A stretch of 29,067 nt of DNA. It comes from a virus. Below the pieces are notes generated by a model. It was not told where the DNA came from, searched no databases, and saw nothing but the letters and a program-made list of their open reading frames with translations. The translations under genes were made by a program, and so were the position numbers. Below are positions 1,440-21,562 of this stretch, in pieces (the first letter of the stretch is position 1; each line of letters begins with the position of its first letter). The DNA lies in the IMG/VR virus record IMGVR_UViG_3300009436_000074, positions 1 to 29,067 of that record, one strand, 5' to 3'.

Positions 1440-2152
1440 TAACGTTTAAAGAGCATATAAGCTATTCTAAGAGCATAACTATAGATGATGACGGTATTGT
1501 ATCAGCTGATAATTTAGATGCCTTAGAGAAGCTTGATTTGCTTCGCAGAATGTCAGAGACATATCCGTTAAAGGAAAGCAAAAGTATAACTCCATACATC
1601 AGAGAGAATTTCAAGGTCAACAAAGGGGTAATGGATTTGGTCTTAGGTCAGTTCATAATGGTAGAGCAAATACTCACTGGTAAATCTAAGTTTGATTCAG
1701 AAGAAGAAATGGAGCTTGGCATACTAGAACTAATACTCAGACCAAAGCACCACACTGAGTTCGACAACGTAAACCCTATTGAAGAACAACAACACCGTGA
1801 AAAACTATTAAACTCACCTGTTCAAGACTTGTATAACGTGTTGCAAAGATATTTAGGCAATAGAGAAGATATACTGTTTAATAAATTCAAGGGAGTTTTC
1901 TACGAGGTAAACGAAGAAACCGAAGAGGTGGAGGAAAAGGTTCAAGATACTGGTGAAGCGGGTGCTCAATTCCATTCTCAATGGTACTGGTATTCTATAG
2001 TTAGGTTGTTAGCACACGAGGATATAACTAGATATTCCGTTATATATATGCTGAATATGTCCGAGGTTTTACCAGAAATGAGCTATCTAGCTCAAAAGAA
2101 CAAGGTGGAGTCAGCTCAACAAAGACAGAACGCAGCTCTTAGTAAATTGTAA
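1436..2152 (+). CDS. Possible tail assembly chaperone-like protein
   Basis: This is a 238-aa protein. I place the start at ATG 1436, which overlaps the terL TGA as ATGA; a longer frame from 1394 would run into terL. The N-terminal part (to about 120) is charged and helical. The C-terminal part has an aromatic helix (QWYWYSIVRLLAHEDIT, near residues 180-196) and then a helix with MSEVLPEMSYLAQKNK. A small helical protein with an aromatic C-terminal helix upstream of the tape measure gene resembles tail assembly chaperones of Bacteroidetes phages. No slippery sequence is evident in this gene. The chaperone assignment is an inference from shape and position; the gene itself is certain. Its stop TAA lies inside the TTGTAAATTA motif at 2147. 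Confidence 0.45.
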   Translation: MITFKEHISYSKSITIDDDGIVSADNLDALEKLDLLRRMSETYPLKESKSITPYIRENFKVNKGVMDLVLGQFIMVEQILTGKSKFDSEEEMELGILELILRPKHHTEFDNVNPIEEQQHREKLLNSPVQDLYNVLQRYLGNREDILFNKFKGVFYEVNEETEEVEEKVQDTGEAGAQFHSQWYWYSIVRLLAHEDITRYSVIYMLNMSEVLPEMSYLAQKNKVESAQQRQNAALSKL

Positions 2153-2156
2153 ATTA
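2147..2156 (+). promoter_or_regulatory. TTGTAAATTA motif, copy 1
   Basis: This exact copy of the recurrent intergenic motif begins 23 bases before ATG 2170. The stop codon of the upstream gene (TAA 2150-2152) lies inside it. It is a candidate phage promoter or initiation element; its function is inferred from recurrence only. Confidence 0.5.
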
Positions 2157-2169
2157 AATAAATGTAATC

Positions 2170-2607
2170 ATGAATAATTTATTGTCTTTCTACGATAAGG
2201 TTAAAGAGTTTTGCTCAAGCCACCATATGATTAATGAGTTCATGCTTTTGGGTTCAGCAGACGAATTAGGTAGCAGAGAGTTTGGTTATAGAAGCTTTGT
2301 GATGATACCATCTAGGTCAAATATATCAAGAGATTTAAGCAGACCTATATACACATTAACATTTAATTGCACAATACTAGATCGCTGCGAAGTCTCCAAC
2401 GAACAGAGTTATGTTATCTCAACGGAAGAAAACTTATTTGTCGTGGGCCAGCTTCAAGATTTTCTTATACAAGACGATGAGAATTGTTACATTGATGATG
2501 TAGAGGTCGGATCGTTTTACAACGAGGATGAAAATGTTACAGCTGCTTACTTTGATTTAACGATTTCATTTGCTAGAAAAAACTATAACGTATCCATAAA
2601 TAATTAA
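2170..2607 (+). CDS. Putative tail completion/terminator-like protein
   Basis: This 145-aa protein is predicted to be mostly alpha/beta. An N-terminal helix (residues 1-20) is followed by alternating strands, for example RPIYTLTFNCTILD and the C-terminal AAYFDLTISFARKNYN. The size, the fold-like pattern and the position between terL and the tape measure gene fit neck or tail terminator proteins that cap the tail tube. I do not recognise a specific family from sequence, so the role is inferred. It begins an intergenic unit with its own TTGTAAATTA motif, and its TAA overlaps the next ATG by one base (TAATG at 2605-2609), suggesting coupling with the 208-aa neighbour. Confidence 0.4.
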   Translation: MNNLLSFYDKVKEFCSSHHMINEFMLLGSADELGSREFGYRSFVMIPSRSNISRDLSRPIYTLTFNCTILDRCEVSNEQSYVISTEENLFVVGQLQDFLIQDDENCYIDDVEVGSFYNEDENVTAAYFDLTISFARKNYNVSINN

Positions 2608-3233
2608 TGTTAAGCCCAGCTCAACAAAGAGGAAGGTTGAGGTCTATAGTGGTTCGTAGATTAAAAGAGTACGACATAGGCTACCAACTTAGAAGTAAGC
2701 TATCTGCGTATGGACAGAAGGCTAGTGGTCGCTTAGGTAGAAAGATAAGTTACGAGGCAAGAAACTTAAATGTATCTGTGTCTTCAGACTTAGACACTAA
2801 CACTGGATACATAGATAATATATTTGTAAATATTAACCTTCCATGGGAAAACAATTACGGTAGGAAATTAGATACTGAAGCTGGTGCTTCGGAGAATGCG
2901 GAAAGCCAAATGATACCTAGTATCGATGCGTTAGTACAGTGGATTAAAGATAAGAACATTACTACAACAATGACCGTAAGTAGTAGTCTTAAGTCTGGCG
3001 GCATAAAAGAATATACTTATACAAACACAATGTCCTCTAGAAAAAGAATGGCTTGGTTTGTTCAGCAAAACATTATAGAAGAAAACGAATTAAGAACTAG
3101 AAATGACTACGCAGAAGAACTTCGGTTTGAATTAGAAGACTTATTAAATGAATCAATTGAAGAATGGTTTGATGAAATAAGTGTAGATTTTATGGGAGAG
3201 GTTTACGTAGAGATAGGAAACATACTAGGATAA
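2607..3233 (+). CDS. Hypothetical neck/tail protein upstream of tape measure
   Basis: This is a 208-aa protein with a basic N-terminus (QRGRLRSIVVRRLKEY), a central Ser/Thr-rich strand region, a segment with PSIDALVQWIKDKNI (about residues 110-125) and an acidic C-terminus (EELRFELEDLLNESIEEWF). The segment naming a helix and W-I-K-D-K resembles head-tail or tail completion proteins of the HK97 gp10 type in other Bacteroidetes phages, but no diagnostic motif is visible. It follows its neighbour with a one-base overlap and is followed one base later by the tape measure start at 3235, so it belongs to the tail assembly cluster. Confidence 0.4.
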   Translation: MLSPAQQRGRLRSIVVRRLKEYDIGYQLRSKLSAYGQKASGRLGRKISYEARNLNVSVSSDLDTNTGYIDNIFVNINLPWENNYGRKLDTEAGASENAESQMIPSIDALVQWIKDKNITTTMTVSSSLKSGGIKEYTYTNTMSSRKRMAWFVQQNIIEENELRTRNDYAEELRFELEDLLNESIEEWFDEISVDFMGEVYVEIGNILG

Positions 3234-3234
3234 A

Positions 3235-3498
3235 ATGGCAAAGAAAACAAGTAGTACAAGCAGTTTATCATATCAGGTATCGGAGATAAAATCTTCGATG
3301 AACGATCTTCAGAAGAAGATTAAAGACCTTGGTGCTGAAGGCGAGTCAGTTGTAAAGATATTCAGCGAATTAGGTGATAAGATAAAGGGTGGCGTTGGTG
3401 GCGCAGAAGATGTTATAGATCAGATTAAAGAATCTAAAGCCGCCATACTAGACTTTGTAGAGGCCAAAAAAAAGAAGGCAATCTTACAGATGAGATAA
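3235..3498 (+). CDS. Unshifted short product of the tape measure gene (87 aa)
   Basis: Without frameshifting, ribosomes from ATG 3235 make an 87-aa protein that ends KKKKAILQMR at TAA 3496-3498. It is hydrophilic, with a Ser/Thr-rich start (KKTSSTSSLS) and a helical coiled-coil body (MNDLQKKIKDLGAEGES). If shifting is programmed, this would be the zero-frame product and might act on its own, for example in chaperoning the long form. If the A-run is an artefact, the peptide does not exist as a separate product. Nothing else in the sequence decides between these. Confidence 0.5.
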   Translation: MAKKTSSTSSLSYQVSEIKSSMNDLQKKIKDLGAEGESVVKIFSELGDKIKGGVGGAEDVIDQIKESKAAILDFVEAKKKKAILQMR

Positions 3499-6400
3499 GT
3501 GCGGGACAAGCAAAGTCGTTAAACGCATTAATTTCACTAGAGAACAAGCTTGAACGATCTAAGCAAGGGGTTTTATCTGCTTTATCTAACGTTGCAAAGG
3601 AAGAGAAAAGAACCAACGACCTAAAGCGCAGAGCTGCTGAAGAGCAATTTAATGCAGACCAACAAGCAAAGGCTGCAATAAAAGAGCAGTCTGCTGGTGA
3701 ATCTGAGATAAATAGAATACTCAGAGAAAAAGCATCCAACACCGCAGATATAAACGAAGAAGTTTATAAACGTCAGCAAGCTGAGAAAGAGGCTTTAGCT
3801 AAAGAAAAAGAATCTGCAAAGCTTAAGAAGCAGTCTTTAGAGGAGCAACGTGAATTAGAGAGGTTCATGCTTGAGCAGAGCCTCATCAGACAAGGTAAGA
3901 AGTTCGAAGAAGAAGAACGTCTTGAAAAAGAAGCTTTAGAAAGAAAGAAAGAAGCGGTTGCGGAAGAAGCTAGGTTAGAAAAACAACAAGCACTAGCAGC
4001 CATTGAGAACGCTAGAAAAGAAAAGGAAGCCGACAACAAGCTTCGTCTTGCTAAGATAAGAAACAGCAAGCTATCTGTAAACAAAAGAGCCGCCCTAGAA
4101 GAAAAATACTGGGAAGATTTACAGTCGAACTACAGTGAGGACTCCGTAGAATACAAAGAGCTTGAGGTAAAGAAGTTAGCAGCTACTAAAAAATACGAAA
4201 GAGAAAGAGCTGGAGTAGTTAAGAAATTTAGATCCTCTAGGGCCAAAGAAAATAAAGTAGACAATAAAGGATTTTTTGGTCAGTTTAAAGATGGTCTTCT
4301 TAGCAAGGGTATTGGTAAGACTTTGGGTAGACTTGCTGGTGTAAGTGGAATTGTACAAACCGCTAGAAAATCTTTTCAGTTATTAAGGAACGCTATAGTT
4401 AATTCTTTTAAGGCTTCCGTAGACTTTGAAGCACAACTTGCTCAGTTACAAGCTGTTACTGGTATAAACAACGATGAGCTTGGTCAGTTAGAGCAAAGTG
4501 TACTCTCCGTTGCTGGTAGTACGAAGTTTACATCTGAGGAAATCGTACAGCTACAAACGGAACTTGGTAAGCTAGGGTTTAGTGTCGCTGAGATTGAGGC
4601 AGCTACATTGGCCGTTGCACGTACAGCACAAGCACTTGGAGAAAAGGTTGGCCCTGTGGCTCAAAGAATTGGACAGATACTTAATCAGTTCAATCTCGCA
4701 GCAGCAGAAACCACTAGGGTTGCAGATTCACTCGTGTCTGTAATTAACTCTTCTGCACTTTCATTCGAAGGGTTTAGTACGGCACTACAATACATTGGCC
4801 CATTAGGAGCTGAGGTAGGTACTACTTTCGAGGAAACAGCAGTTGCTATGGCACTCTTAGCAGATAACGGTTTCACAGCGTCTCGTATCGGTACTGGTCT
4901 TCGTGGTATACTTACCGAGCTGTCTAAAACGGGTAAAGACTTAAACACCGTAGTAGAAGATTTAGCTGAAGAAGAGTTAACACTTGCCGAAGCGGTAGAC
5001 CTAGTTGGAAAGCGGAACGCTGCTCAGTTAATAACTTTAGTACGTGCAGCTAGTGCTCAAAAAGAAGTAGGTAAATCACTTTCGGATTTAAATGACCAAT
5101 ACTTTAATCAAGGTTCTGCTGCTATTGCGGCTGCTCAACAAGTAGATACATTTCAAGGTAACTTAGATTTATTAAAGTCTGCTGTTAACCGTGTTCAGAT
5201 TGCATTTGGTAACTTCATGAAGACAAGTAAGCTGCTGAGGTTTGCATTAAAACTTATAGATGAAGAGGGATACAATGCCGCTATCGCTGCTGAAGCTATT
5301 GCCGCAGCAGATCCCACGCAATTCAGTCAGAAGCTTTCTGAGGCTGCCGATGTTGTTGGTGGTCTTAAAAACGATTTAACGGATGTAGCAGAAGTAAGGG
5401 CTTTTGGTAATATAGCTGCACGTAGGATAGTTGGTGAAACAATTATACAGCCGATGGAGGATGAGCTTGCTATGTTGAAAAAGCTTAAAAAAGAACGAAT
5501 AGACGGATTGAAAGCTAAAAAAGAAGAGTTAAGGCTTCAGCAACTAGAATTACCCTCAGGTTCAGAAGAAAGACTTAGATTGCGTAGAGAGGAGGTTGCC
5601 CTAGGCATAGAGATGGCTAAGCGAACTAAAGAGACAATAGCTGAGAGTCAAGCAATTGTCTCTTTAGAAAAGAAAATAAAAGACAGAAAAGAAGAGGGAT
5701 TCGAAGCTGAGATTGAATATGTTCAAGAGTTAATCAATGAGGTAGGTCTTCAGACTGCTTTGGAAATCGAAAGAAACAAAGTAATAGATGAAAGAAAGGA
5801 CATCTTAGAAGAGCTTCAGAACACTAGAGAAGCAGAAACGGAAAGCCTTAAAAAAGCTAATGACTTTAATGTTAAAGTTCAGACTGAATTTACAACAGTA
5901 CAAGAAAAAATAAATGCGCTCCTTGATGAACAATCAAAAAGAAAAGAAGAAGGAAATGAATTAACTGGTGAAGAGCTTCTTTTATTTAACGCAAAGCTAG
6001 AACAGTACAAACAAGAAAGTAACTCTTTGTCAAATCAAATAGTCCAGAAAGGGGATTTAGAAAAGTTGGCTCAAAAAGAATTTGAAAAGGAGTTTAAGCA
6101 GTTAGCCAATCGTATTACGGCTAGAAAGCAATTGTTAGAAAATGAGCAAGCACTACTAGATGTAGCTATACTAACAGAAAAAAATCTTTCTAAAAACGCA
6201 AGAACTGAGGAAGAACGTAACGAAGCTACAGAAAGACTAAGCACTCTTCAGCAAAAAAGACTCTCTAACGAAACACAAGCTTTTAATGATTTAAATGGAA
6301 TCACTAATGAATATGCAGATTTAATTGACGATGTAGGAGTAGAGATAGAAAGAGCTGGTCTTGACGGTAGGTTTATTGAAAAGGCAAATGAGAGATTAAA

Positions 6401-7568
6401 TTCTTTTAGATTAGGATTTAATGCTCTAGCTCTAGACATTGGAGATATTGCAAAGGCTGGAGAAGATTTAGCTGATTCGTTAGCCGCTGTATACAAAATT
6501 GATTTAGAGACTGGCGAACTAGATCCTAAACAGCTAGCTGATGTAGATAAACAAATTAAAGACTTAATAAGAAAGCTTTTACCTGGATTAGAGATTCTAT
6601 CTCCTGATGCTTTTGAAGCTATATATCAAAAGCTACAGCCTCTAGTAATGTCAAGACTTATTCCAGATCCGAAGGATGATGAGAAGGAGCGTAAGAAAAA
6701 AGTAAAAAAATTATTAGATACTGTTTTAAAAGAACTGACTGATGCAGCAAAAGAATATAACGCTACGGCATTGGAAAACACTCAAGGTCGTTTAGATGCT
6801 GAGTTAGACGCTATAAAGAATAGATACGATACAGAACAAGATATTTTAAAGTCTCAGTTAGACAATCAGCTTATAACAGAGTCTCAGTTCAGAGTTAAGT
6901 CTAACGAGCTTAAAAGAAAGCAAATACAAGAAGAGAACGATATCAATAAAAAGAAGTTTGAGGCAGAGAAAAAAGCTGACTTGATAAACGTTGCTATAGA
7001 AACAGCTGAAGCAATTGCTTCCAACTTGATAAACAACTATGGCAAGACAGATACTGTAACAGCGACTGGTTTAACTCTAGCGGGTAATGCTGCATTGCTT
7101 GCCGGGGGTGCTTTAAAAGCTGATGCTATTCGTAGACGTAAGTTCTTCCCTGTAACCTTTGAAGAAGGGGGTATCGTTGAAGGGCCGTCTCATGCAAATG
7201 GTGGGGTTCCTTTTTCTGTTGCTGGTCAAGGGGGATATGAAATGGAAGGTGGCGAGTTTGTAATTAACAAAAAAGCATCTGCTCTTCATAGAAGTCTTTT
7301 AGAAAGAATAAACAGTTCTATAAAGCCAAACACAAATATTGATACACACAAGTTTGCTATGGGTGGATTGATTGACAAATCAAAATCGTCCACTGTAAAT
7401 GTCAAAACCGACAATAGAGAAAGTGTAAATTATCTAAAGGCAATTGCTGAGGCAAGTGTGTCAACAGCTATTAATAGCAACAAGCCATTAAGAGCTTTTG
7501 TATCGGAGAGAGACTTAAGAACTAGCGAGAACGAAAGAAGACTAAGAGAAAGAAACGACAGAATATGA
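3235..7568 (+). CDS. Tail tape measure protein, expressed by predicted -1 frameshift
   Basis: The full product is read as 3235-3471 joined to 3471-7568, predicted 1444 aa. The first frame starts at ATG 3235 and would stop at TAA 3496. The -1 frame is open from 3438 to 7568 but has no in-frame ATG until 3867, although the stretch 3474-3866 is clearly coding (Lys/Glu-rich coiled coil). The frames meet at A_AAA_AAG (3468-3474). Features of the joined protein include a long N-terminal coiled coil, a TP901-type PhageMin_Tail domain around residues 390-600 (VDFEAQLAQLQAVTGINN; GFTASRIGTGLRG), further coiled coils, and a C-terminal GG(I/V)VEGPSHANGG segment seen in other phage tape measures. It sets tail length and occupies the tube lumen. 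An assembly indel in the run of eight A is the main alternative to programmed shifting. Confidence 0.88.
3466..3474 (+). other. Predicted -1 ribosomal frameshift site (A_AAA_AAG)
   Basis: Eight A (3466-3473) are followed by G. In the zero frame the codons are AAA 3466, AAA 3469 and AAG 3472, so bases 3468-3474 form A_AAA_AAG, the classic bacterial -1 slippery heptamer. After slipping, reading continues with GAA at 3474. A purine-rich TAGAGG lies just upstream (3458-3463). No strong downstream hairpin is obvious by eye. Confidence 0.75.
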
Positions 7569-10845: not shown

Positions 10846-10855
10846 TTGTAAATTA
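10846..10855 (+). promoter_or_regulatory. TTGTAAATTA motif, copy 2
   Basis: This is an exact copy that starts directly after the tip protein stop (TAA 10843-10845) and begins 15 bases before ATG 10861. The same 15-base spacing recurs before the genes at 15173 and 21568. Function is inferred. Confidence 0.55.
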
Positions 10856-12307: not shown

Positions 12308-12308
12308 A

Positions 12309-12318
12309 TTGTAAATTA
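12309..12318 (+). promoter_or_regulatory. TTGTAAATTA motif, copy 3 (before capsid gene)
   Basis: This is an exact copy just after the protease stop (TAA 12305-12307), 41 bases before the capsid start. The following leader is A/T-rich (AATAAAAACGTAACTC, then TTTAAATTTAAATAAA), as is common before strongly translated Bacteroidetes genes. Confidence 0.55.
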
Positions 12319-12349
12319 ATAAAAACGTAACTCTTTAAATTTAAATAAA

Positions 12350-13240
12350 ATGAGTGTATCTATTGCATCTTTACCATATGGTGACCGCAGACAAAATCTG
12401 TTTATCGACTCTATGGTTAAAAGCGCAGCGGTTTTAAACCGTTTCCGCTTAATCGATGGCGTAAAAGCCAAAGTAAACGTACCTATTTTTGACGCATCTT
12501 TGACGTTTGGTACAGACCTATGTGTGTTCACACCAGCTTCTTCTGCTTCTATTGCAGAAAAAGAAATGACTGTTGACACTTACAAGTGGGCTTTCTTAAA
12601 CTGTAAGAATGTACTTGAAGCATCTTACCGTGGACTTCTATTGAAGAAAGGTCAGCACAACCCAGAGACTATGGACGCTGAGTTCAAGGATTGGGTATTT
12701 GACTACTTCTCTAAATTAGCTGCTGAGAAAGCATTGACTCTTGCTGGTAGCGAAATTGAATTAGAATTAGGTAATGACGCTGCTGTTCTTGACTATACTA
12801 TTGCAGCTGGTGGTTTAACTTCTGCTAACATCTTAGACGAGATGGAAAAAGCTTACGCAACAATGAGTGGTGATATGTTGGCCGCTATCTACGGAGACGC
12901 TGATCGTGATTTCAAACCAGCGTTCTTTATGAACACTGTTAACTTGCAAAAGTATCAAATTGCTATTGCTGAGAAATTCACTACTACTCCAGAAGGTATC
13001 ATCGAAGGTAACATTCCTCCGTACTACGGAATGGAAGTTATCCACATGGCTTCTATCGCTAATGATTCTTTCTTTATCTCTGCTCCACAAAACTTGGTTA
13101 TGTTGACTGATGACTACAACGATGTAAAAGCTATCGACATGAAGTACGAAGCTGAGTTGTCAAGCGACAAAATCTGGGGACAGTTTAAGTTAGGTTTCTC
13201 TTACTTGAAAGGCGAGGAAATCGTTTACGCTCAAGTATAA
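12350..13240 (+). CDS. Major capsid protein (HK97-fold type)
   Basis: This 296-aa protein directly follows the protease-scaffold gene, is followed by a hairpin terminator and has its own motif-bearing leader, all typical of the most abundant virion protein. Sequence features fit compact HK97-fold capsid proteins: an early N-arm (SVSIASLPYGDRRQNLF), strands with VNVPIFDASLTFG, a helix with AEFKDWVFDYFSKLAAEKAL (about 105-125), and a C-terminal beta-rich part with IPPYYGMEVIHMAS and DDYNDVKAIDM ending in LGFSYLKGEEIVYAQV. There is no long N-terminal delta domain, which is consistent with a separate scaffold being supplied by the upstream gene. The family call is by context and pattern. Confidence 0.85.
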   Translation: MSVSIASLPYGDRRQNLFIDSMVKSAAVLNRFRLIDGVKAKVNVPIFDASLTFGTDLCVFTPASSASIAEKEMTVDTYKWAFLNCKNVLEASYRGLLLKKGQHNPETMDAEFKDWVFDYFSKLAAEKALTLAGSEIELELGNDAAVLDYTIAAGGLTSANILDEMEKAYATMSGDMLAAIYGDADRDFKPAFFMNTVNLQKYQIAIAEKFTTTPEGIIEGNIPPYYGMEVIHMASIANDSFFISAPQNLVMLTDDYNDVKAIDMKYEAELSSDKIWGQFKLGFSYLKGEEIVYAQV

Positions 13241-13250
13241 TTAAATTAAT

Positions 13251-13273: not shown

Positions 13274-13295
13274 TAACCTTAAAAATAAAAATAAA

Positions 13296-13913
13296 ATGGC
13301 TTGTGAATTATCTCTTGCTGACGTAACATACGACTGTACTGATTTAGGTATTGGTGGACTAAAGTCTGTTTACGTTGCTAATCGCTCAAAATTAATCGCT
13401 AACACAGATTCTGCTTCAGCTGCATGGGTTCCTGTTTCTGTTGCCCTTGACGTTGTAACTGTAACTCAAGATGCCAATGTTGCTACTAGTGGTGACGACA
13501 ACAGCATTTTAGGAACAATTGGTTCGGGCCACTCAGCTCAAATCAACTTTAACTTGAAAGATGGGTTCTCTGTCTTTACAGATGTTAAGACTGTAACTGC
13601 TGATGGTATCGTATCTAGTGTACCTACTGTTGCTGTAGAAGTTCCTTCTATGTCTTTGGCTCACCGTAACGCTTTGAACTCTCTTGCTTCTGGTGGTTCT
13701 GAATTGGTTGCTTTCGTAGAAACTGCTGCTGGTACTTACCATATGCTAGGCTTCGATTACGGAATGTACGCTGCTACAATTGACGGAACATCAGGTTCTG
13801 GTCGTAGTGAGAAAAACCGTTTCCAAATTACCCTAACAGGTGATGAGGATTCTTTGGCTTACAGCCTTACTGCCGAGCAGTGGGAAGACATTACTTCTTC
13901 TGTTGTTGCATAA
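13296..13913 (+). CDS. Putative major tail tube protein
   Basis: This is a 205-aa protein that begins MACELSLADVTYDC and continues GIGGLKSVYVANRS, a start I associate with tail tube or major tail proteins of Bacteroidetes phages. The rest alternates short strands and loops, with SGHSAQINFNLKDGFSVF (about 76-93) and KNRFQITLTGDEDSL (about 171-185). It is flanked by two G/C-rich hairpins, as expected for an abundant structural protein with an isolated message. Its C-terminus (AEQWEDITSSVVA) ends in a W-E-D-I sequence similar to motifs in the small proteins further on. A related but shorter protein is encoded next. The tube role is inferred from pattern and context. Confidence 0.65.
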   Translation: MACELSLADVTYDCTDLGIGGLKSVYVANRSKLIANTDSASAAWVPVSVALDVVTVTQDANVATSGDDNSILGTIGSGHSAQINFNLKDGFSVFTDVKTVTADGIVSSVPTVAVEVPSMSLAHRNALNSLASGGSELVAFVETAAGTYHMLGFDYGMYAATIDGTSGSGRSEKNRFQITLTGDEDSLAYSLTAEQWEDITSSVVA

Positions 13914-13923
13914 TAACAGAATC

Positions 13924-13933
13924 TTGTAAATTA
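13924..13933 (+). promoter_or_regulatory. TTGTAAATTA motif, copy 4
   Basis: This is an exact copy located between the tube gene stop and the strong terminator at 13940. If it is a promoter, transcripts would meet the terminator almost at once, so this copy is the least easy to reconcile with a simple promoter role. Confidence 0.5.
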
Positions 13934-13939
13934 ACACAA

Positions 13940-13970
13940 GGGGAGGGACTAATACCCCTCCCCTTTTTTT
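13940..13970 (+). terminator. Strong intrinsic terminator after tail tube gene
   Basis: GGGGAGGG (13940-13947) pairs with CCCTCCCC (13956-13963) over an eight-base loop, followed immediately by seven T (13964-13970). This is the best intrinsic terminator in the window and should limit readthrough into the downstream tail genes. Confidence 0.88.
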
Positions 13971-13981
13971 ATACATATAAT

Positions 13982-14491
13982 ATGAGTTTTAGCTGTAGTA
14001 TTTTACTTGAGGATTTAGACATTAACTGCAACAAAAATGTTGGTGGAATCACAAAGGTAGTATTAGGTCTTCAGAAAGATTTAGATATGGTGTTTGACGC
14101 TACGGATGAAACGATTATAACTCAAGCTCAATTAACTGATCACGTTATATTTGAGCACAACAACAAAGATTCCGTAACTAATTTCACGGAAACAAAAGCA
14201 ACTAGTAATGGCCTTGGTGTTATATCTACAGAGATATTAATTAGAATACCATTTCTAGATAGAAAAATGAATCAAATAGACTATATGTCTAGAAGACAAG
14301 ATTTGGTTTGTATAATGTACCACAATAATGGAACGGCTACCATTAGTGGATGGATGGATGCTTTGACTATGAATTACTCAGCAAATAGCGGAGCTTCAAA
14401 AAAAGAGTTATCTTACATAGACATAAGCCTGGTTACGGATAGTTGGATTGCTTCAATGGCTTGTAGTCAATCCGTAATTGATTTGAACTAA
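13982..14491 (+). CDS. Tail tube-like protein, paralogue of the upstream tube protein
   Basis: This is a 169-aa protein started at ATG 13982; a longer frame back to 13880 would cross the terminator and is rejected. The N-terminus (MSFSCSILLEDLDINC followed by VGGITKVVLGLQ) parallels the start of the 205-aa tube protein: a Cys-containing first strand, an acidic turn with a second Cys, then GG(L/I)(K/T). Middle features include TKATSNGLGVISTEILIRIP and a C-terminal strand with ELSYIDISLVTDSW. It may be a minor tube, tail terminator or tube-initiator protein. The relation to its neighbour is seen in the sequence; the role is inferred. Its stop overlaps the next start by one base (14491). Confidence 0.6.
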   Translation: MSFSCSILLEDLDINCNKNVGGITKVVLGLQKDLDMVFDATDETIITQAQLTDHVIFEHNNKDSVTNFTETKATSNGLGVISTEILIRIPFLDRKMNQIDYMSRRQDLVCIMYHNNGTATISGWMDALTMNYSANSGASKKELSYIDISLVTDSWIASMACSQSVIDLN

Positions 14492-14754: not shown

Positions 14755-15017
14755 TGAGCAACATTACTAAAGATAGAAACTACTATCAAGCAACAACAGG
14801 AGATTTAGGGTTTCGTAAACTTTCCGCTGGAGACACTACTCCTAACGGTGAGAAGTATCGTTTTATTGTTTGTCTTCAAGAGGCTAACGTAAACGTTGAA
14901 AGCGAAGTAGGAGATTCTCTTACAGGGCAAATCTTACCAACGGGTATGACTTTGTTTGGTAGATTCACTGAAGTTCAGTGTTATGAAGGAGTTGTGTTAG
15001 CATACATATCAGAGTAA
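14754..15017 (+). CDS. Small hypothetical tail-region protein
   Basis: This is an 87-aa protein. I chose ATG 14754, which overlaps the previous TAA by one base (TAATG); an upstream in-frame ATG at 14742 lies inside the preceding gene. The sequence includes KDRNYYQATTGDLGFRKL, then VGDSLTGQILPTGMTLFGRF, and ends EGVVLAYISE: a compact, beta-rich protein without membrane spans. I do not recognise it. Conservation of the overlapping arrangement on both sides suggests a stoichiometric partner of the small W-E-T-I proteins encoded before and after it. Confidence 0.65.
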   Translation: MSNITKDRNYYQATTGDLGFRKLSAGDTTPNGEKYRFIVCLQEANVNVESEVGDSLTGQILPTGMTLFGRFTEVQCYEGVVLAYISE

Positions 15018-15163
15018 TGATAAACCTTGCTCTATCTGTACTATCTATATCAACACGATCTGCTGCTTTAATTTATCAGCGGACAGAATTTGACAATGTG
15101 CAGTGGAATACTATACAAATGCGTTGGGAAACAGTTCAAGATACTTGGGAAGCAGAATTGTAA
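15017..15163 (+). CDS. Very small protein with W-E-T motifs (48 aa)
   Basis: This frame starts at ATG 15017, overlapping the previous TAA by one base, and stops at TAA 15161-15163. The N-terminus is hydrophobic (MINLALSVLSIS) and then turns polar (YQRTEFDN). The C-terminal half has the same tryptophan periodicity as the 87-aa protein at 14491: VQWNTIQMRWETVQDTWEAE. The shared motif, the tight overlap and the lack of any other use for this gap make it very likely to be a real gene. Function is unknown. Its stop codon sits inside the TTGTAAATTA motif at 15158. Confidence 0.7.
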   Translation: MINLALSVLSISTRSAALIYQRTEFDNVQWNTIQMRWETVQDTWEAEL

Positions 15164-15167
15164 ATTA
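15158..15167 (+). promoter_or_regulatory. TTGTAAATTA motif, copy 5
   Basis: This is an exact copy overlapping the stop of the 48-aa gene, 15 bases before ATG 15173 (five bases between motif end and start codon). It opens the fibre cassette. Confidence 0.55.
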
Positions 15168-15172
15168 AAGAG

Positions 15173-15604
15173 ATGGCTACACTAACTGGAAATAAACCAA
15201 AGGATACATACAAAGGTCTTATAAAGACCTCCGATTCTAACGAGCTGACATCAGAGAAACAACTCTCAGATGGTAACGGAAATAACATACCCCTTCATGT
15301 AAGCACAGATAGTGTAAGATTCTCTGGAGAGGTTAAAGATTCTTCGTCTTCTGCTGGCTCTGAAGGTCAATCGCTTCTTGTAAACTCAAGCGGGACTGTT
15401 CAATGGACAGACGTAAAATATACACATAGCCAATCTGTCGCTTCAGACAGGTGGGGAATACAACATAACTTAGGTTTTAAGCCGAGTGTAACTGTATTAG
15501 ACTCCAGTGACAACGAGGTCTATGCAGAGGTACAGCATTCTAGCAACAATCAGCTTGATGTTAGATTTAAGAACGCCCAAACAGGCAAAGCATATTTAGT
15601 TTAA
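15173..15604 (+). CDS. Putative tail fibre/receptor-binding accessory protein (143 aa)
   Basis: This is a 143-aa, Ser/Asn/Gly-rich protein. The N-terminal half (KDTYKGLIKTSDSNEL, then a D-G-N-G-N-N turn) resembles the start of fibre or collar proteins. The C-terminal half reads WGIQHNLGFKPSVTVLDSS, followed by VYAEVQHSSNNQLDVRFKN and ends TGKAYLV; this HNLGF(K/R)PSVTV...LxVxF...GxAYL pattern is common at the tips of phage tail proteins. It opens a run of four likely adsorption genes. Whether it is a tip, a chaperone or a fibre connector cannot be told from sequence. Confidence 0.65.
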   Translation: MATLTGNKPKDTYKGLIKTSDSNELTSEKQLSDGNGNNIPLHVSTDSVRFSGEVKDSSSSAGSEGQSLLVNSSGTVQWTDVKYTHSQSVASDRWGIQHNLGFKPSVTVLDSSDNEVYAEVQHSSNNQLDVRFKNAQTGKAYLV

Positions 15605-15621
15605 TTTATATATAAAAAACA

Positions 15622-17052
15622 ATGGCAATTAAATTTTTAGCTGACTTAAACCTCTCCGGATCAGAGCTGGTTTCAGCAGCGTTAGAAACAAGAGCAAGTG
15701 CTCAAGAAAGCGGAAACGCAACGGGACAAATTTACTTTAATACCACAGACGGTGCGGTAGAGATATTCAACGGTAGTTCATACATTGTAGTTGGTAAGGA
15801 GTATGGTGCTGGTGATGGTATTACATTAACAGGTACTACATTCTCCGCTGATGCAAACGATGGTATAAGCGTAGATTCAAATGGTATAAGTGTTGACAGT
15901 ACAGTAATCCGTACTAGTGGAGCACAGACCAAAGGTGGTAACATGACGTTCTCCAATGACGTTACTGTAACTGGTAACTTGACTGTAAACGGTACACAGA
16001 CTATCTTGAACACTGCGGAACTAGCAGTAGAGGACACTAACATTACATTGAACTCTGGAGCTAGTGAGGGTGCTGATAGTGGTATCTCTGTACATAGAGG
16101 GCAAGGTGAAGATGTACCCGTATTACAATGGGATGAATCTGAATCTAGATGGACATTTACTAACGATGGTTCTACGTTCAACAACATCCCACTTTCCTCA
16201 GAGTACAACAACTACACTTTACCAGCTGCTACTTCATCTGCTTTAGGTGGTGTTAAAGATGGTGCTAGAATTACTATCGCTGCCGATGGTACAATCTCAG
16301 CTGATACTCAAACAGCAAACGACTTTACCGATACTTTGCTTACAAAGCTTGGTGGCATTGCTACAGGTGCAGATAATTACGGATCGTGGACTGTATCTGA
16401 TGGCACAAACTCTGAGACAATAGGTAGCGGAGACTCAGTAGCATTCCGTAGTGGTACAAACACTACTGTATCATACGATGAATCCACAAATCAGTTTACA
16501 TTCTCGTCTGCCAATACTCAGTTGTCTACTGCTGATGTTCGTGGTAAAATTTCTGGAACTGGTTTAATTGGCTACGATTCTTCAACTGGTGTTATAAGCA
16601 CAACTGCAAATAACTACTCGTTACCAGAGGCTACAACAAGTGCTTTAGGTGGAATTAAAGTAGGGTCAAACCTTACAGTTACCGCTGATGGTACACTTTC
16701 GGGTACTGCAAACACTCAGTTAAGTGCAGAAACCGTAAGAGATTTGGTTGCAGATGTAATGGTTGGCAATGCAACACACGTTGGTATTACTGCTAATGAT
16801 GCCGATTCAAGTAACGCTGTTACCTTAACAAACTCATATAACGTATATACTGTAAACACTGGTTCTCACACAGGAGACTATAGTGTAACTACAGCAACAG
16901 CTGGGGTGAACCATCCCGCTCATGTTGATGTTTATGACAGTAGTGGTAACCATTGCATGGTTGAAATAAACTATGCAAGTTCTACTTGGACAATTGTAGG
17001 TTTACCAACAGATTCTTATGACGTTGTTATAAGCGGTAAAAGAAGAGTATAA
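15622..17052 (+). CDS. Tail fibre protein (476 aa)
   Basis: This protein has strongly repetitive, Gly/Ser/Thr/Asn-rich composition typical of trimeric beta-structured fibres. The N-terminus (AIKFLADLNLSGSELVSAAL) fits a virion-attachment head. Around residues 115-150 is the recognisable fibre module GNLTVNGTQTILNTAELAVE followed by DTNITLNSGA, found in many marine phage fibres. Two copies of an SALGG(V/I)K...ADGT(I/L)S module follow. The C-terminal 90 residues form a different, less repetitive domain ending VVISGKRRV, probably the tip. There is no lytic or depolymerase motif. The gap before its start (TTTATATATAAAAAAC) lacks the TTGTAAATTA motif, suggesting cotranscription with the 143-aa gene. 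Confidence 0.82.
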   Translation: MAIKFLADLNLSGSELVSAALETRASAQESGNATGQIYFNTTDGAVEIFNGSSYIVVGKEYGAGDGITLTGTTFSADANDGISVDSNGISVDSTVIRTSGAQTKGGNMTFSNDVTVTGNLTVNGTQTILNTAELAVEDTNITLNSGASEGADSGISVHRGQGEDVPVLQWDESESRWTFTNDGSTFNNIPLSSEYNNYTLPAATSSALGGVKDGARITIAADGTISADTQTANDFTDTLLTKLGGIATGADNYGSWTVSDGTNSETIGSGDSVAFRSGTNTTVSYDESTNQFTFSSANTQLSTADVRGKISGTGLIGYDSSTGVISTTANNYSLPEATTSALGGIKVGSNLTVTADGTLSGTANTQLSAETVRDLVADVMVGNATHVGITANDADSSNAVTLTNSYNVYTVNTGSHTGDYSVTTATAGVNHPAHVDVYDSSGNHCMVEINYASSTWTIVGLPTDSYDVVISGKRRV

Positions 17053-17057
17053 TTCAT

Positions 17058-17070
17058 TATATTTGTTGTA
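17058..17070 (+). promoter_or_regulatory. TATATTTG-type promoter box before the large fibre gene
   Basis: TATATTTG (17058-17065) exactly matches the Bacteroidetes -7 consensus TAnnTTTG and is part of a 13-base sequence, TATATTTGTTGTA, repeated at 20922. It overlaps a variant of the recurrent motif (TTGTAAAATAAATTA, 17066-17080). No good -33 TTG is visible at the usual distance. Confidence 0.55.
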
Positions 17071-17082
17071 AAATAAATTAGT

Positions 17083-19821
17083 ATGGCTATTAAGGTAGTA
17101 GGAGATATAGATGTTTCAGGGAGTCACAATTTAGGGGCTTCAGATATTCCTAACTTAGCAGCAAGTAAGATTACGAGTGGTACATTGGGTACTGCTCGTA
17201 TTCCTTCTTTAGCGGCTTCAAAAATTACAAGCGGGACGTTTGATGCGGCTCGTATACCTGACTTGTCAGCTACTTATCAAGCAGCGGGGAACTATTTTAC
17301 CGATGGCGATTCTGTCATCAATATGAACAACAACGATGGATTTAGCTATAATGACACTACAAATGTAATGTCTGTAAAGCTAGACGGAACTCTTCGTGAA
17401 CTTTATCATACGGGCAACCTAACGCCTTTAACAATAGGAACAACATCAAGCACGGCAATGGCGGGTGATACTACCATACCGAGTGGTAACGCAGTAATAG
17501 ATTGGACTGCTGACCAAGGAGATACAAACATTCATTCTGGAAACTATATTAACACTACATACACTGTAGGTGATAATGGTTTAACGGCAAAGAATTTTAC
17601 ATCTACGCTAAAAACCAAGCTTGATGGAATTTCTACTGGAGCTGATGTAACTCCATCTTGGGTTCCTAGTTCCGATCCAAGCTATATATCTAGCGTACCC
17701 GCAACATTCTCGGCAACGCAAATAACACTAGGTAGTGGGGTTATACTAAAAGAATCTGCTGACCGTGCCGATTTACTATACATAAACAGCTCTACAAGCG
17801 GTTGGGGTGGACTTCAAATAGGAAACACATCTAATGAGTTTATTTTCTCATTAATGGGTAACGGCAGTGTAGGTGGTATATATGATGACCAAAACGCAGA
17901 CTGGTTAATTCAATGGACTGAAAATGAGGGTGTTAGTTTATACTTTGAAGACAGCAGCAGAAAATTCCAGACAACAAGCACGGGTGTTACCATTACTGGT
18001 GAAATTGTAACAACTGGCGGCAACTCTACTAATTGGAACACTGCTTATGGTTGGGGTGACCATGGCGAAGCGGGGTATGGAACGTCAAATTTTGACGGAG
18101 CATATAGTTCTTTATCTGGTAGACCAACATTAGGAACAGCAGCAGCCGCAGCAACAGGAGACTTTGCTACAGCAGCTCAAGGAACTACAGCTGATAGTGC
18201 ATTACAGTCGGGTGATGCCGACTTAACTCCAAGCTGGGTTCCATCAACTGATCCTAATTATTTAACATCTCATCAATCCCTATCATCTCGCACAGCTCTT
18301 AATGATATTCGCTCTTTAGGCTCACAAGCGTTTACAAATGGTTCAAACCCTAATATAACTACAGCTCAAGTAATATCTGAAATAGAATCTGATGGTGGTT
18401 TTGATTCTTTTAGCTCGGTATTTAAAACATCTTGGAGCTACGCTGGTAACTATAATCTTAGTGATGCGGGTAACTTTACTGAAACTGCTGGTTCGTCTTG
18501 GATAACATGGACTGATAACTCTAGCGACAGCAGTAGAGGTAACATAACTGCACTTGCTATTGCACCAAACACAGGTGGTTCAGCTGGAGGAGTATTTATA
18601 TATAATGACCAAGGAAATGATTATTCTCCTGGATGGAGAGAGGTTTGGACTTCATCTAATTTCGCTGACAACTCAGGTAATTGGAACACAGCCTACGGAT
18701 GGGGTGATCACGGTGCTGCTGGTTATGGTGATGCTACTCAAGATTATGTTGGTGAGCAGATTGGTAGTTTATCAATACCTACGAATAACAATCAGCTAAC
18801 CAATGGTGCTGGTTACATAACGTCACAACGTGCTATTAGTGGTACTCCTACTGATGGAGCAACCACAACTGCTATATCTTCTGATTGGGCTTTTGATAAT
18901 GTCAAGACTGCTGTGCCCGCTAACGCTGTGTTTACAGATACGGTTAATACTTTTGACGGGGCTTATAGTTCTTTATCTGGTACTCCAACATTGTTTGACG
19001 GAGCTTATAGTTCTCTTAGCGGAAGACCTACAATACCAAGTGGTAACGCTATTATAGATTGGACTGCCAACCAAGGAACTACTAATATCCACTCTGGTAA
19101 TTATAGCAACACTCAGTTATCGAATGCTGATGTCATAAGTGCTGTAGTAGCGAGTAACAGCATTGATGATGCAGATAAAGTCACTATAAGAAGTAATATT
19201 GGTGCTGGAACATCAAGTACAGATACAGTATATACGCACCCTACCTCAGCTGGGAACAAGCACATACCTACGGGGGGAGCGGCTGGGCAGTTTCTAAAAT
19301 ACTCTTCTAGCGGTACGGCTACATGGGCAACGCCATCATATACTACAAATACAGACACTCAATTAAGTCAAGAGGAAGTTGTGAACATGCTAACAGCTGG
19401 AACTAATGTAACAATTAGTGATGAGGGGGTTATAGCATCAACTGATACAGATACAGTATATACTCACCCTACTTCAGCTGGTAACAAACACATACCAAGT
19501 GGCGGTTCTGCTGGGCAGTTCCTAAAGTATTCAGCAAGTGGTACTGCTACATGGGCAACACCTTCTTACACAACCAACACGAACACAACTTATTCAGCGG
19601 GTACTGGTCTTGATTTAACAGGCACTACATTTAGTGTTGAGGCTGATTTAAGAGATGGCATTACTCACGTTGGTAAAGATTCTAACAACTACATACAGTT
19701 TGATCCCACGAATGGACGTATAGATTTTTATACAGGTGGTGTATTTGTAGCTCGTTTAGAGTCGGATGGTGATTTGCACGTTAAAGGCGATGTTATTGCA
19801 TACTCAGATATATTCTCATAA
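17083..19821 (+). CDS. Large repetitive tail fibre protein (912 aa)
   Basis: This is the largest adsorption protein in the window. The N-terminus (AIKVVGDIDVSGSHNLGASD) parallels that of the 476-aa fibre, suggesting both dock to the same site. The body is built of repeated modules: two SKITSGT(L/F) units (about 27-60), two T(I)PSGNA(V/I)IDWTA...TNIHSGNY units, two PSWVPS(S/T)DP units, two WNTAYGWGDHG(E/A)AGYG units, three FDGAYSSLSG units and two long THPTSAGNKHIP...TATWATPSY units. The final 60 residues (LRDGITHVGKDSNNYIQF onwards) are non-repetitive and end in VKGDVIAYSDIFS, perhaps the tip or a trimerisation element. It is likely host-range determining. It shares TKL(G/D)GI(A/S)TGAD with the 476-aa fibre. 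Confidence 0.85.
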   Translation: MAIKVVGDIDVSGSHNLGASDIPNLAASKITSGTLGTARIPSLAASKITSGTFDAARIPDLSATYQAAGNYFTDGDSVINMNNNDGFSYNDTTNVMSVKLDGTLRELYHTGNLTPLTIGTTSSTAMAGDTTIPSGNAVIDWTADQGDTNIHSGNYINTTYTVGDNGLTAKNFTSTLKTKLDGISTGADVTPSWVPSSDPSYISSVPATFSATQITLGSGVILKESADRADLLYINSSTSGWGGLQIGNTSNEFIFSLMGNGSVGGIYDDQNADWLIQWTENEGVSLYFEDSSRKFQTTSTGVTITGEIVTTGGNSTNWNTAYGWGDHGEAGYGTSNFDGAYSSLSGRPTLGTAAAAATGDFATAAQGTTADSALQSGDADLTPSWVPSTDPNYLTSHQSLSSRTALNDIRSLGSQAFTNGSNPNITTAQVISEIESDGGFDSFSSVFKTSWSYAGNYNLSDAGNFTETAGSSWITWTDNSSDSSRGNITALAIAPNTGGSAGGVFIYNDQGNDYSPGWREVWTSSNFADNSGNWNTAYGWGDHGAAGYGDATQDYVGEQIGSLSIPTNNNQLTNGAGYITSQRAISGTPTDGATTTAISSDWAFDNVKTAVPANAVFTDTVNTFDGAYSSLSGTPTLFDGAYSSLSGRPTIPSGNAIIDWTANQGTTNIHSGNYSNTQLSNADVISAVVASNSIDDADKVTIRSNIGAGTSSTDTVYTHPTSAGNKHIPTGGAAGQFLKYSSSGTATWATPSYTTNTDTQLSQEEVVNMLTAGTNVTISDEGVIASTDTDTVYTHPTSAGNKHIPSGGSAGQFLKYSASGTATWATPSYTTNTNTTYSAGTGLDLTGTTFSVEADLRDGITHVGKDSNNYIQFDPTNGRIDFYTGGVFVARLESDGDLHVKGDVIAYSDIFS
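18034..18081 (+). repeat. WNTAYGWGDHG module, copy 1
   Basis: Coding repeat within the large fibre gene; the second copy lies at about 18680-18727. Protein identity is near complete (one E/A change) while many third codon positions differ, indicating an old duplication held by selection. Confidence 0.7.
18680..18727 (+). repeat. WNTAYGWGDHG module, copy 2
   Basis: Second copy of the 48-base coding repeat found at about 18034-18081 in the large fibre gene. Confidence 0.7.
18952..19031 (+). repeat. Tandem FDGAYSSLSG repeat
   Basis: Two back-to-back 40-base units (each about 13 residues, FDGAYSSLSG followed by TPTL or RPTI); a third, separate copy lies at about 18091-18130. They are part of the fibre shaft. 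Confidence 0.65.
19219..19354 (+). repeat. 136-base fibre module, copy 1
   Basis: Encodes DTVYTHPTSAGNKHIP and then a GQFLKYS...GTATWATPSYTTNT segment. The second copy begins 228 bases further on at 19447. Differences between the copies are mostly synonymous. Confidence 0.75.
19447..19582 (+). repeat. 136-base fibre module, copy 2
   Basis: Direct repeat of 19219-19354 within the large fibre gene, with a shared first 17 bases and further scattered identity. Confidence 0.75.
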
Positions 19822-20783
19822 TGGCATTACAAAGCAGTGGACAAATAAAAATATCGGAGATAGCTACCGAGATTATTGGCAATAGCGAACCAAACCTTAG
19901 TCTTAGAGGATTGTCGGGTGGCACTTACGGAGCGATAAACACTAATAATGCAGCGGCAGATAGACCAGATGGTAACACTCCTCACGCTATGAGCGAGTTT
20001 TACAGCTATGACCATAGTGCATCGGCAGCATACTCAAACACAAAGTATTATCAAAACGATGGTACAAGCGATTACATAAACTGTACTACAGGAACATCTC
20101 CGTTTAGCATAAATACTACACAAGACTTGAGCTTTAGTATGTGGGTACGCAACACGGGTAGTTTGCAGAACCAATTACTTTTTAACTTTGGTAACACAAA
20201 TTCAAACGGTAATAACCGTATATTTCTTACCTATAGCCAAAGTCTAAATAGACTTATTTGTAGAATCAGAACCAATAGCGTAAACTTTGATAGGCAGTTC
20301 CCCTTGCATGATAACAACTCCGCAACGGGAATTAATAGCAGTGCAAGATGGAAAAGCACGGCACGAGGCAATGTCAATAGCGATGGATTCTGTATGATTA
20401 CAATGACTTACGATGCCTCACAAACAAATGCCTCTAACGCATTTAAACTGTACTGGAATGCTACAGAGTGCACTTCGCAGTCAAATGCTAATAACGGAAC
20501 AAGAACAGGGATTAATGCCACTAAGGGTCGTATAGGGGAAAACCTACACGCTACAAACAGTGCGGGTAATGCCACCCTAGATTACGATGAAATTAAGATA
20601 TACAATAAGGTGCTGTCTTCAAGTGAGGTAACAACCTTATATAACAGTGGTGTTATAGCAGATAGTAGTCAAACAGTTTCTAGTGGTCTTATAACAGAAT
20701 GGACTTTTGAGGGGAACAACGCTAACGATAGCAATAGTAAATATACCAACTCAATTGTAAATGGTAACATAGCAACGTACTAA
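19821..20783 (+). CDS. LamG/concanavalin-like lectin tail protein
   Basis: This 320-aa protein starts with a one-base overlap with the large fibre stop. The first 60 residues (SSGQIKISEIATEIIGNS, then AMSEFYSYD) form a short conserved-looking phage tail module. Residues about 75-320 form a jelly-roll, laminin-G-like domain: LSFSMWVRNTGS (sugar-binding fold strand), GFCMITMTYDAS, and the closing GRIGENLH...LDYDEIKIYNKVLSSSEVTTLYNSG. This arrangement is typical of LamG_3 domains in glycan-binding proteins. It probably binds a surface polysaccharide of the host together with the fibres. No catalytic motif is visible. Confidence 0.82.
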   Translation: MALQSSGQIKISEIATEIIGNSEPNLSLRGLSGGTYGAINTNNAAADRPDGNTPHAMSEFYSYDHSASAAYSNTKYYQNDGTSDYINCTTGTSPFSINTTQDLSFSMWVRNTGSLQNQLLFNFGNTNSNGNNRIFLTYSQSLNRLICRIRTNSVNFDRQFPLHDNNSATGINSSARWKSTARGNVNSDGFCMITMTYDASQTNASNAFKLYWNATECTSQSNANNGTRTGINATKGRIGENLHATNSAGNATLDYDEIKIYNKVLSSSEVTTLYNSGVIADSSQTVSSGLITEWTFEGNNANDSNSKYTNSIVNGNIATY

Positions 20784-20920
20784 TGGCATACGATATACAA
20801 CCTTACGATGAAGAAGAAACAGTTTGGGAAGCTGTTAATGATGGAACTCCAGAGTTCTACGGAACACATGAGGAATGTGTTATATATATAGAAGATGTTA
20901 GTCGGGGGAGATATAATTAA
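20783..20920 (+). CDS. Very small acidic protein (45 aa)
   Basis: ATG 20783 overlaps the previous TAA by one base and the frame stops at TAA 20918-20920. The product is strongly acidic (YDEEETVWEAVNDGTPEFYG, then HEECVIYIEDVSRGRYN). The tight one-base overlap, the lack of any other gene here and the position at the end of the fibre unit support it. A W-E pair (VWEAVND) recalls the W-E-T motifs of the small proteins upstream. Function is unknown; it may be a fibre-associated chaperone or a tail accessory protein. Confidence 0.6.
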   Translation: MAYDIQPYDEEETVWEAVNDGTPEFYGTHEECVIYIEDVSRGRYN

Positions 20921-20921
20921 C

Positions 20922-20939
20922 TATATTTGTTGTAGTTAA
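20922..20939 (+). promoter_or_regulatory. TATATTTG promoter box plus TTGTAGTTAA motif variant
   Basis: TATATTTGTTGTA (20922-20934) is identical to 17058-17070 and includes a perfect Bacteroidetes -7 box, TATATTTG. It overlaps TTGTAGTTAA (20930-20939), a variant of the recurrent motif, 26 bases before ATG 20956. It likely drives the portal-connector-lysis block. Confidence 0.6.
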
Positions 20940-20955
20940 CTAAAATATATTTTGT

Positions 20956-21189
20956 ATGGCTAAGGCTAAAAAACTAACAAAAAAAGAACACGAAACAATG
21001 GAGGCTATTGTCTCTCTTATTCGTAACACGGAAAACGCAATTGTTGAAGCTGCTATTGTAAGTAGTAGAGCAACTTCTGAGCTTCTTAACGCAAAAGAAT
21101 CTTGGGAAAAACTTAGTAAGAGTCTAGAGGAAAAGTACGGTTCTGTTGAAATAGACATGAAAACCGGAACTTTTAGAGACGCTAGCTAA
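20956..21189 (+). CDS. Small helical protein, unknown function (77 aa)
   Basis: This protein is basic at the start (AKAKKLTKKEHETMEAI) and then helical with Ala/Ser/Leu heptads (VEAAIVSSRATSELLNAKES), ending in IDMKTGTFRDAS. It looks like a short coiled-coil protein. It is the first gene of the unit driven by the promoter-like region at 20922 and is followed by a TGTAAATTA motif. Proteins of this size near portal genes may be internal scaffold or head decoration factors, but nothing specific is visible. Confidence 0.6.
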   Translation: MAKAKKLTKKEHETMEAIVSLIRNTENAIVEAAIVSSRATSELLNAKESWEKLSKSLEEKYGSVEIDMKTGTFRDAS

Positions 21190-21192
21190 TTA

Positions 21193-21202
21193 ATGTAAAT
21201 TA
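21193..21202 (+). promoter_or_regulatory. ATGTAAATTA motif, copy 6
   Basis: This copy differs from TTGTAAATTA only at the first base and begins 23 bases before ATG 21216, the same spacing as copy 1 at 2147. The leader also contains AAAGGGCAAG, which could act as a weak ribosome-binding site. Confidence 0.5.
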
Positions 21203-21215
21203 AGTAAAGGGCAAG

Positions 21216-21551
21216 ATGAAAAGAATTAAGTCTGAGGTTATTAATACTATCTCTTTTGTAAAGTCGTTAGATTGGGTTATCAATTCTTTCGATGTTACAT
21301 TGGAAAAAGTTGTTGGTAACGGCAGTCAAACATTTGTAGACTTACAAGACTTAAACAGCTTGGAAACTTGCACCGACTTTATTCGTCTTAATATAGATTT
21401 AATAAATACCTCGTTAGAAGGTGGTGAGTATTTCCTCACCCTTTCTAATGGGGATTCTAGATATAGGTATTCTTGCAATATAGAAGACTATACAACAACA
21501 CAAGACGGATCAGGTATTTATGAAGACTCTGTTAAGTTTTCAACGTACTAA
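21216..21551 (+). CDS. Hypothetical protein upstream of portal (111 aa)
   Basis: The protein has a helical N-terminus (MKRIKSEVINTISFVKSLDW), a short alpha/beta middle and a beta-rich second half (IRLNIDLINTSLEGGEYFLT, then YRYSCNIEDYTTTQ). The LxIDL...EGGEYxLTLSNG pattern recurs in small proteins near head or tail genes of Bacteroidetes phages, but I know no function for it. It has its own upstream motif at 21193 and a 16-base gap before the portal gene, so it may be expressed in its own right. Confidence 0.6.
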   Translation: MKRIKSEVINTISFVKSLDWVINSFDVTLEKVVGNGSQTFVDLQDLNSLETCTDFIRLNIDLINTSLEGGEYFLTLSNGDSRYRYSCNIEDYTTTQDGSGIYEDSVKFSTY

Positions 21552-21552
21552 T

Positions 21553-21562
21553 TTGTAGATTA
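21553..21562 (+). promoter_or_regulatory. TTGTAGATTA motif, copy 7 (before portal)
   Basis: One mismatch from TTGTAAATTA. It begins 15 bases before the portal ATG at 21568, the same spacing as before the genes at 10861 and 15173. Confidence 0.5.

Follow-up and report, generated by a model that had tools for sequence, protein, structure and literature searches.

A conserved word before the late genes of a group of uncultured phages as a candidate single-element promoter, and a gp55-like sigma factor candidate

A ten-base word between the structural genes

The stretch analyzed here, a 29-kb contig of a marine bacterial virus from IMG/VR (IMGVR_UViG_3300009436_000074, 29,067 nucleotides, in the following called the window), carries its structural part on the plus strand between positions 1 and 24200. 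The ten-base word TTGTAAATTA recurs in the gaps between these genes and, judging from its distribution, is very probably a promoter of the late genes. As listed in an initial annotation, exact copies start at 2147, 10846, 12309, 13924 and 15158 on the plus strand, near copies at 21193 and 21553, and looser ones at 17066 and 20930, the latter (TTGTAGTTAA) being the weakest of the listed sites with three mismatches; all of these coordinates could be verified. A sixth exact copy, the single one on the minus strand, was missing from that list. The sites are given below, where +1 denotes the predicted transcription start.

2147–2156, plus strand: P1, candidate late promoter TTGTAAATTA, exact; predicted +1 A at 2162, gene 2170–2607
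10846–10855, plus strand: P2, candidate late promoter TTGTAAATTA, exact; predicted +1 is the A of ATG 10861 (leaderless)
12309–12318, plus strand: P3, candidate late promoter TTGTAAATTA, exact; predicted +1 A at 12324, putative major capsid gene 12350–13240
13924–13933, plus strand: P4, candidate late promoter TTGTAAATTA, exact; predicted +1 A at 13939, gene 13982–14491
15158–15167, plus strand: P5, candidate late promoter TTGTAAATTA, exact; predicted +1 is the A of ATG 15173 (leaderless)
21193–21202, plus strand: P6, candidate late promoter ATGTAAATTA, one mismatch; predicted +1 A at 21208, gene 21216–21551
21553–21562, plus strand: P7, candidate late promoter TTGTAGATTA, one mismatch; predicted +1 is the A of ATG 21568 of the portal gene (leaderless)
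17066–17075, plus strand: weak candidate TTGTAAAATA before gene 17083, with TATATTTG directly upstream
25963–25972, minus strand: copy of TTGTAAATTA inside the open reading frame (ORF) 25786–25998, upstream of a sigma-like gene; candidate autoregulatory promoter

The word is strongly enriched. On the plus strand from 1 to 24200, five exact copies compare with a mean of 0.07 and a maximum of 1 in 300 dinucleotide shuffles, and the A/T-rich gap sequence alone contains five copies against a mean of 0.008 and a maximum of 1 in 500 shuffles. Allowing up to one mismatch, these gaps hold eight copies (shuffle mean 0.22, maximum 2). Two further copies, one within the tape measure gene (7423) and one at 13301, where the word corresponds to the codons of MACEL, were judged to be due to chance.

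The initial annotation had also described a fixed spacing to the start codon, and this stood in part. The distance is indeed 15 bases for the copies at 10846, 15158 and 21553 and 23 bases for those at 2147 and 21193, and it is nearly constant inside a gene class. Across classes it varies, since the word at 13924 starts 58 bases ahead of the codon at 13982.

Conservation and register of the word

For comparison, we used 160 related loci obtained in two scans, with 71–98% identity in terminase or capsid. In these loci, the structural strand carries TTGTAAATTA 341 times and the opposite strand eight times, while the reversed word, included as a control, occurs six and two times, so that the conservation on which the initial annotation had made its idea depend is evident. 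Homologous upstream regions were then taken per gene, and the word was counted as present at up to one mismatch. It precedes gene 2170 in 69/70 regions, gene 10861 in 66/66 (with a gap of five bases in 61/66), the capsid gene in 40/42, gene 13982 in 48/55 and the portal gene in 36/36, here with 26/36 exact copies even though the window's own copy is inexact. The same five genes are preceded by the word in 87–100% of homologues and most other structural genes never, as seen for the large terminase gene terL (0/69) and the genes 1436 (0/54), 13296 (0/52) and 22802 (0/37); this all-or-none distribution over gene starts is the pattern of operon heads. P5 was recovered in 5/20 and P6 in 4/38 homologous regions. 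The sixth base of the word is tolerant (A, G or T), and a looser consensus reads TTGTANATTA, with A/T just upstream.

The most constant feature outside the word is an A six bases past it. This A is fixed in all classes, reaches 97–100% where the start codon is distant (genes 2170, 13982 and capsid) and is present at all seven strong sites of the window; the base preceding it is also mostly A. With this A as +1, the word occupies −15 to −6, its TTG lying at −15 to −13. A class-balanced profile holds signal only from −15 to −6 and around +1, with no information between −20 and −45, and a −33/−35 signal sought in this profile was absent. The gap between word and start codon is mostly 4–6 bases for the portal gene, 5 for 10861, 11–16 for 2170, 28–35 for the capsid gene and 45–58 for 13982. 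Of the two functions originally suggested for the word, these data favor a promoter whose messages have a short leader or none, as the +1 A is kept even where the codon lies 11–58 bases away. They speak against a translation initiation element, because the codon distance ranges from 4 to 58 bases depending on the gene and nothing is found at a constant distance from the start codon.

In the +1 register, TAAATTA of the word places T−12, A−11 and the adjacent T−8 T−7 as in the flavobacterial −7 box, TAHHTTTG at −12 to −5 (PMC6847099), which in Bacteroidota primary promoters is paired with TTTG at −33. However, the profile has A in 97% at −6 and in 67% at −5, with no conserved G, whereas T−6 G−5 is nearly invariant in flavobacteria (PMC6847099). 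Because the box register fits while A−6 and the lack of G−5 do not, the word is −10-like but not the flavobacterial consensus. With no T−6 G−5, no −33 element and a TTG added at −15 to −13, it is also not the standard Bacteroidetes promoter pair, as had been noted from the outset. The host-type arrangement TTG-N17-21-TAnnTTTG showed no enrichment on the late strand.

Based on these observations, we propose that TTGTAAATTA drives late transcription in this phage group, as a promoter spanning −15 to −6 that would require no −33/−35 element. Transcription would begin at the A six bases past the word, with an uncertainty of one base, and would be restarted by the promoter where the structural operons begin. 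Messages would be leaderless where the start codon supplies the +1 A (10861, 15173 and 21568), which the register of the word makes moderately likely, and would have a short leader elsewhere, as in the case of P3 with a predicted A-rich leader of 26 bases. Leaderless messages are reportedly rare (5.5%) in Flavobacterium psychrophilum (PMC9723704).

The sigma-like gene and alternative readings of the word

The minus strand of the window encodes a small protein that could read such a promoter.

25196–25603, minus strand: gp55-like late sigma factor candidate, 135 amino acids (aa), TTG start; assigned by predicted fold and conservation

Its AlphaFold model (mean predicted local distance difference test score, pLDDT, 85) contains four helices in a predicted sigma-region-2 fold without region 4. 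The best Foldseek match among 350,542 PDB chains is T4 gp55 in the open complex (7d7c_F, probability 1.00), closely followed by region 2 of sigmaE bound to the −10 element and by SigC region 2, and in a viral fold library annotated late sigma factors match at E 5.6e-4 and 5.8e-3. This predicted fold is the strongest evidence for a sigma identity. At the level of sequence profiles, one family member matched the PHROG “sigma factor for late transcription” weakly (E 0.021), and NCBIfam sigma70-ECF matched the sigma-like protein at E 0.071. Relatives of the protein were found at 63 loci with 58–99% identity, and divergent ones (44–57%) in near-complete records. The top viral fold match is an unannotated 119-aa protein (A0A1B4XWX9) of Tenacibaculum phage pT24, an isolate with a Bacteroidota host; going by the modeled fold, it is probably an unrecognised late sigma. 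TTGTAAATTA is absent from the first 50 kb of pT24.

Several observations connect this gene to the word. It is present in 21/34 records tested and in nearly all word-bearing records of at least 35 kb; one record (G029) appears to end ahead of the expected sigma locus when compared with its relative G030. The minus-strand copy of the word lies on the same strand as the sigma gene and upstream of it, at 360 bases in the window and in most relatives at 369–384 bases. Here, codon usage points to a constraint at the DNA level: Leu is encoded by TTA in 36/38 cases versus 41/274 elsewhere in the ORF and Ile by ATT in 30/31 versus 102/257, counts that are uncorrected for relatedness. This test argues against a chance copy as well as against one kept only for the peptide CKLI. 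A promoter copy in this position suggests that the sigma may amplify its own expression, and from the sequence we would give such autoregulation an even chance.

A further link comes from two divergent relatives (G019 and G025), whose sigma is 44–45% identical and whose presumed recognition helix is altered at otherwise (nearly) invariant residues. TTGTAAATTA is absent from both, and TCGTAAATTA followed by TAAAAAG stands before the orthologues of 2170 and 10861. The late strand carries five copies of TCGTAAATTA in G019 and three in G025, the opposite strand none. In G019 (51.6 kb), the promoter together with the 50 bases behind it is found at two places of the late strand 10 kb apart, 24506 (L238:4506) and 34538 (L238:14538), which suggests a duplicated module or an assembly artefact.

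The reader of the word would most likely be host RNA polymerase together with the 135-aa sigma, and that this protein recognizes the word is, in our view, probable. A sigma with region 2 and no region 4, like T4 gp55, would account for the conservation of a −10-type element alone. The combined reading, a single-element late promoter read by a gp55-like sigma of the phage's own, with a promoter copy that would let the sigma raise its own expression, we likewise regard as likely, if a little less so than the recognition of the word itself.

A number of observations weigh against this reading. In one 53-kb relative (G023, a linear contig), the word occurs four times, yet no sigma could be detected. 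The minus-strand copy is missing in several relatives, the position of +1 before the sigma gene is G or A and not strictly A, and the covariation of motif and sigma comes from one clade. The P-values carry no correction for relatedness. Within the window, genes 13296, 15622 and 20956 are preceded by gaps that lack the word or contain a poor match only. The 135-aa ORF had no significant match in Pfam, PHROGs, NCBIfam or the PDB sequences, the Foldseek matches in PDB have E values of 0.02–0.03 and a TM-score of about 0.57 with a large root mean square deviation over 119 columns, and hhalign against ten gp55 sequences gave collinear but weak alignments (E 0.014–0.016, probability about 3).

Other explanations have to be considered alongside. 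The host primary sigma could recognize the word as an atypical −7 box preceded by a TTG, in the manner of an extended −10, possibly with the help of a phage activator; the 135-aa protein would then serve another function. The shared T−12, A−11, T−8 and T−7, placed at the same distance from the start as in TAHHTTTG, would suit this idea, as would the −33 element being weak in F. johnsoniae according to published work (PMC6847099). Given the near-invariant T−6 G−5 of flavobacterial promoters and the A−6 of the word, a profile with no conserved AT-rich motif near −28, a word limited to late genes and the sigma gene, and a phage that itself encodes a predicted sigma-type fold, we consider this explanation improbable.

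Far less probable still are readings that place the word in RNA or assign it to another protein. As a translation initiation element, an A/U-rich sequence at −15 would aid ribosomes without Shine-Dalgarno pairing; three window genes and most homologues of 10861 and portal do show a five-base gap to the ATG, and translation in F. johnsoniae is stimulated by adenines at −12/−13 (PMC6847099). The much longer gaps of the capsid gene and of 13982, the latter with a hairpin in between, and mostly 11–16 bases for 2170 leave little room for it, as do 13296, 15622 and most operon-internal genes, which lack the word, and the fact that the constant feature is the downstream A and not the start codon. A processing or protein-binding site within a long late transcript would fit the intergenic position and the hairpin adjoining the copy at 13924, but the flanks share nothing past the +1 A, no hairpin is evident at other sites, and a processing site would leave the opposite-strand copy upstream of the sigma gene unaccounted for; we rate it as very unlikely. 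An operator bound by some non-sigma DNA-binding protein of the phage has in its favor that a conserved 10-mer could suit many proteins, and yet the word is asymmetric, its orientation always follows the gene, and the position of the +1 A is fixed. Like the translational role, it has only the slightest chance of being correct.

Known promoter systems and further features of the window

The single-element promoter proposed here resembles that of phage T4, where late promoters consist of a −10-type element on its own, TATAAATA, spanning −13 to −6 (PMC1524935; PMC7892883). No sequence is conserved in them at −35, the usual target of sigma region 4, and gp55 is made up of a helix-loop-helix and a domain homologous to region 2 (PMC7892883). 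Common to both are a single −10-type element with an A/T-rich core, no −35 conservation, a start a few bases downstream, and a small sigma encoded by the phage whose fold (predicted here) is that of region 2; the promoter is also limited to late genes, in the present phages with the exception of the copy before the sigma gene. In the T4-like phage Aeh1, a divergent gp55 has been reported to go with a divergent late promoter (PMC1524935), just as the variant TCGTAAATTA accompanies a divergent sigma. The differences begin with the element itself, which is not TATAAATA but TTGTAAATTA and must have TTG at −15 to −13; laid on TATAAATA, TGTAAATT is identical at 6/8 positions, in a register that fits only if +1 is one base earlier. 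Moreover, these phages of about 37–40 kb are not T4-related, a beta-hairpin is predicted after the last long helix in place of the helix-loop-helix of gp55, and predicted leaderless starts are frequent. In T4, gp55 acts with gp33 and the gp45 clamp; a general scan of the genes, in which no search was aimed at them, recognised neither a sliding clamp nor a gp33 homologue. A more far-reaching version is tentative and in its entirety doubtful: a 135-aa gp55-like sigma would work without clamp or coactivator, amplify itself from a promoter concealed within an upstream coding sequence and begin several late messages at the AUG, leaderless in a host lineage where this is rare.

T4-type late transcription as such is already known, and what would be new is a variant in small T4-unrelated phages. 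Little has been described of how phages of marine Bacteroidota-like hosts control their late genes: in the literature searched, we found neither a late promoter for such phages nor TTGTAAATTA in a phage context. If correct, our proposal would widen the range of T4-type late transcription to tailed phages that are small and unrelated to T4, and provide a sigma-promoter pair of minimal size for testing. The motif would then predict late operons across a large group of uncultured viruses, and leaderless late translation would become directly testable.

Nonlabens phage P12024S, a marine flavobacterial isolate, likewise has an annotated sigma-region-2 gene (its gp33), which showed no match to the sigma of the window and was rejected as a relative. 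In its genome (NC_018271), CGTTAATA, once CGTTACTA, occurs on the plus strand at 167, 3019, 5400, 23949, 25189 and 26790, four bases before ATG. Unlike the window word, this element mostly has an upstream A-rich AAAACAAA-like block, apparently representing a second phage promoter system with two elements and near-leaderless starts.

Both weak copies of the window, at 17066 and 20930, are directly preceded by TATATTTG (17058–17065 and 20922–20929), a good host-type −7 box (TAnnTTTG). The two boxes have TATAATT upstream in common, with no −33 partner seen, and the genes behind them may use host-type promoters.

Two hairpins stand in the gaps of the structural genes.

13939–13971, plus strand: terminator-like hairpin with U-run, its foot coinciding with the predicted +1 of P4
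13249–13276, plus strand: terminator-like hairpin, G+C-rich with a short U tract, between the putative capsid gene and 13296

The hairpin at P4 begins at +1 or +2 in all of the 25 sequences listed from a set of 44 distinct ones; all 44 were folded, with a mean of −19 kcal/mol, and the arms change while pairing is kept. It may end the upstream operon while leaving a 5′-end hairpin on the next transcript, or attenuate the new transcript. The second hairpin is also found in relatives, and its gap is without the promoter word.

The window further contains the following genes.

192–1439: large terminase (terL)
3867–7568, plus strand: tape measure
21568–22800, plus strand: portal
23320–23784: endolysin
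24256–24621, minus strand: holin

A RusA-like and a DnaB-like gene are also encoded on the minus strand. The labels major capsid (12350–13240) and “major tail” (13296) are putative and based on position. Using tblastn, the capsid and sigma-like proteins had no match among isolated phages, and the nearest isolate is Nonlabens phage P12024S/L, reached via portal alone at 23–25% identity. Bacterial genomes yielded no terminase relative; a single sigma relative lay on a contig of 3.8 kb, probably itself from a phage, within a metagenome-assembled genome. A Bacteroidota host is plausible for the window phage. Finally, the 368-base plus-strand stretch 3499–3866, between ORF 3235–3498 and the tape measure gene at 3867, may reflect an earlier tape measure start or a frameshifted extension of the upstream gene.

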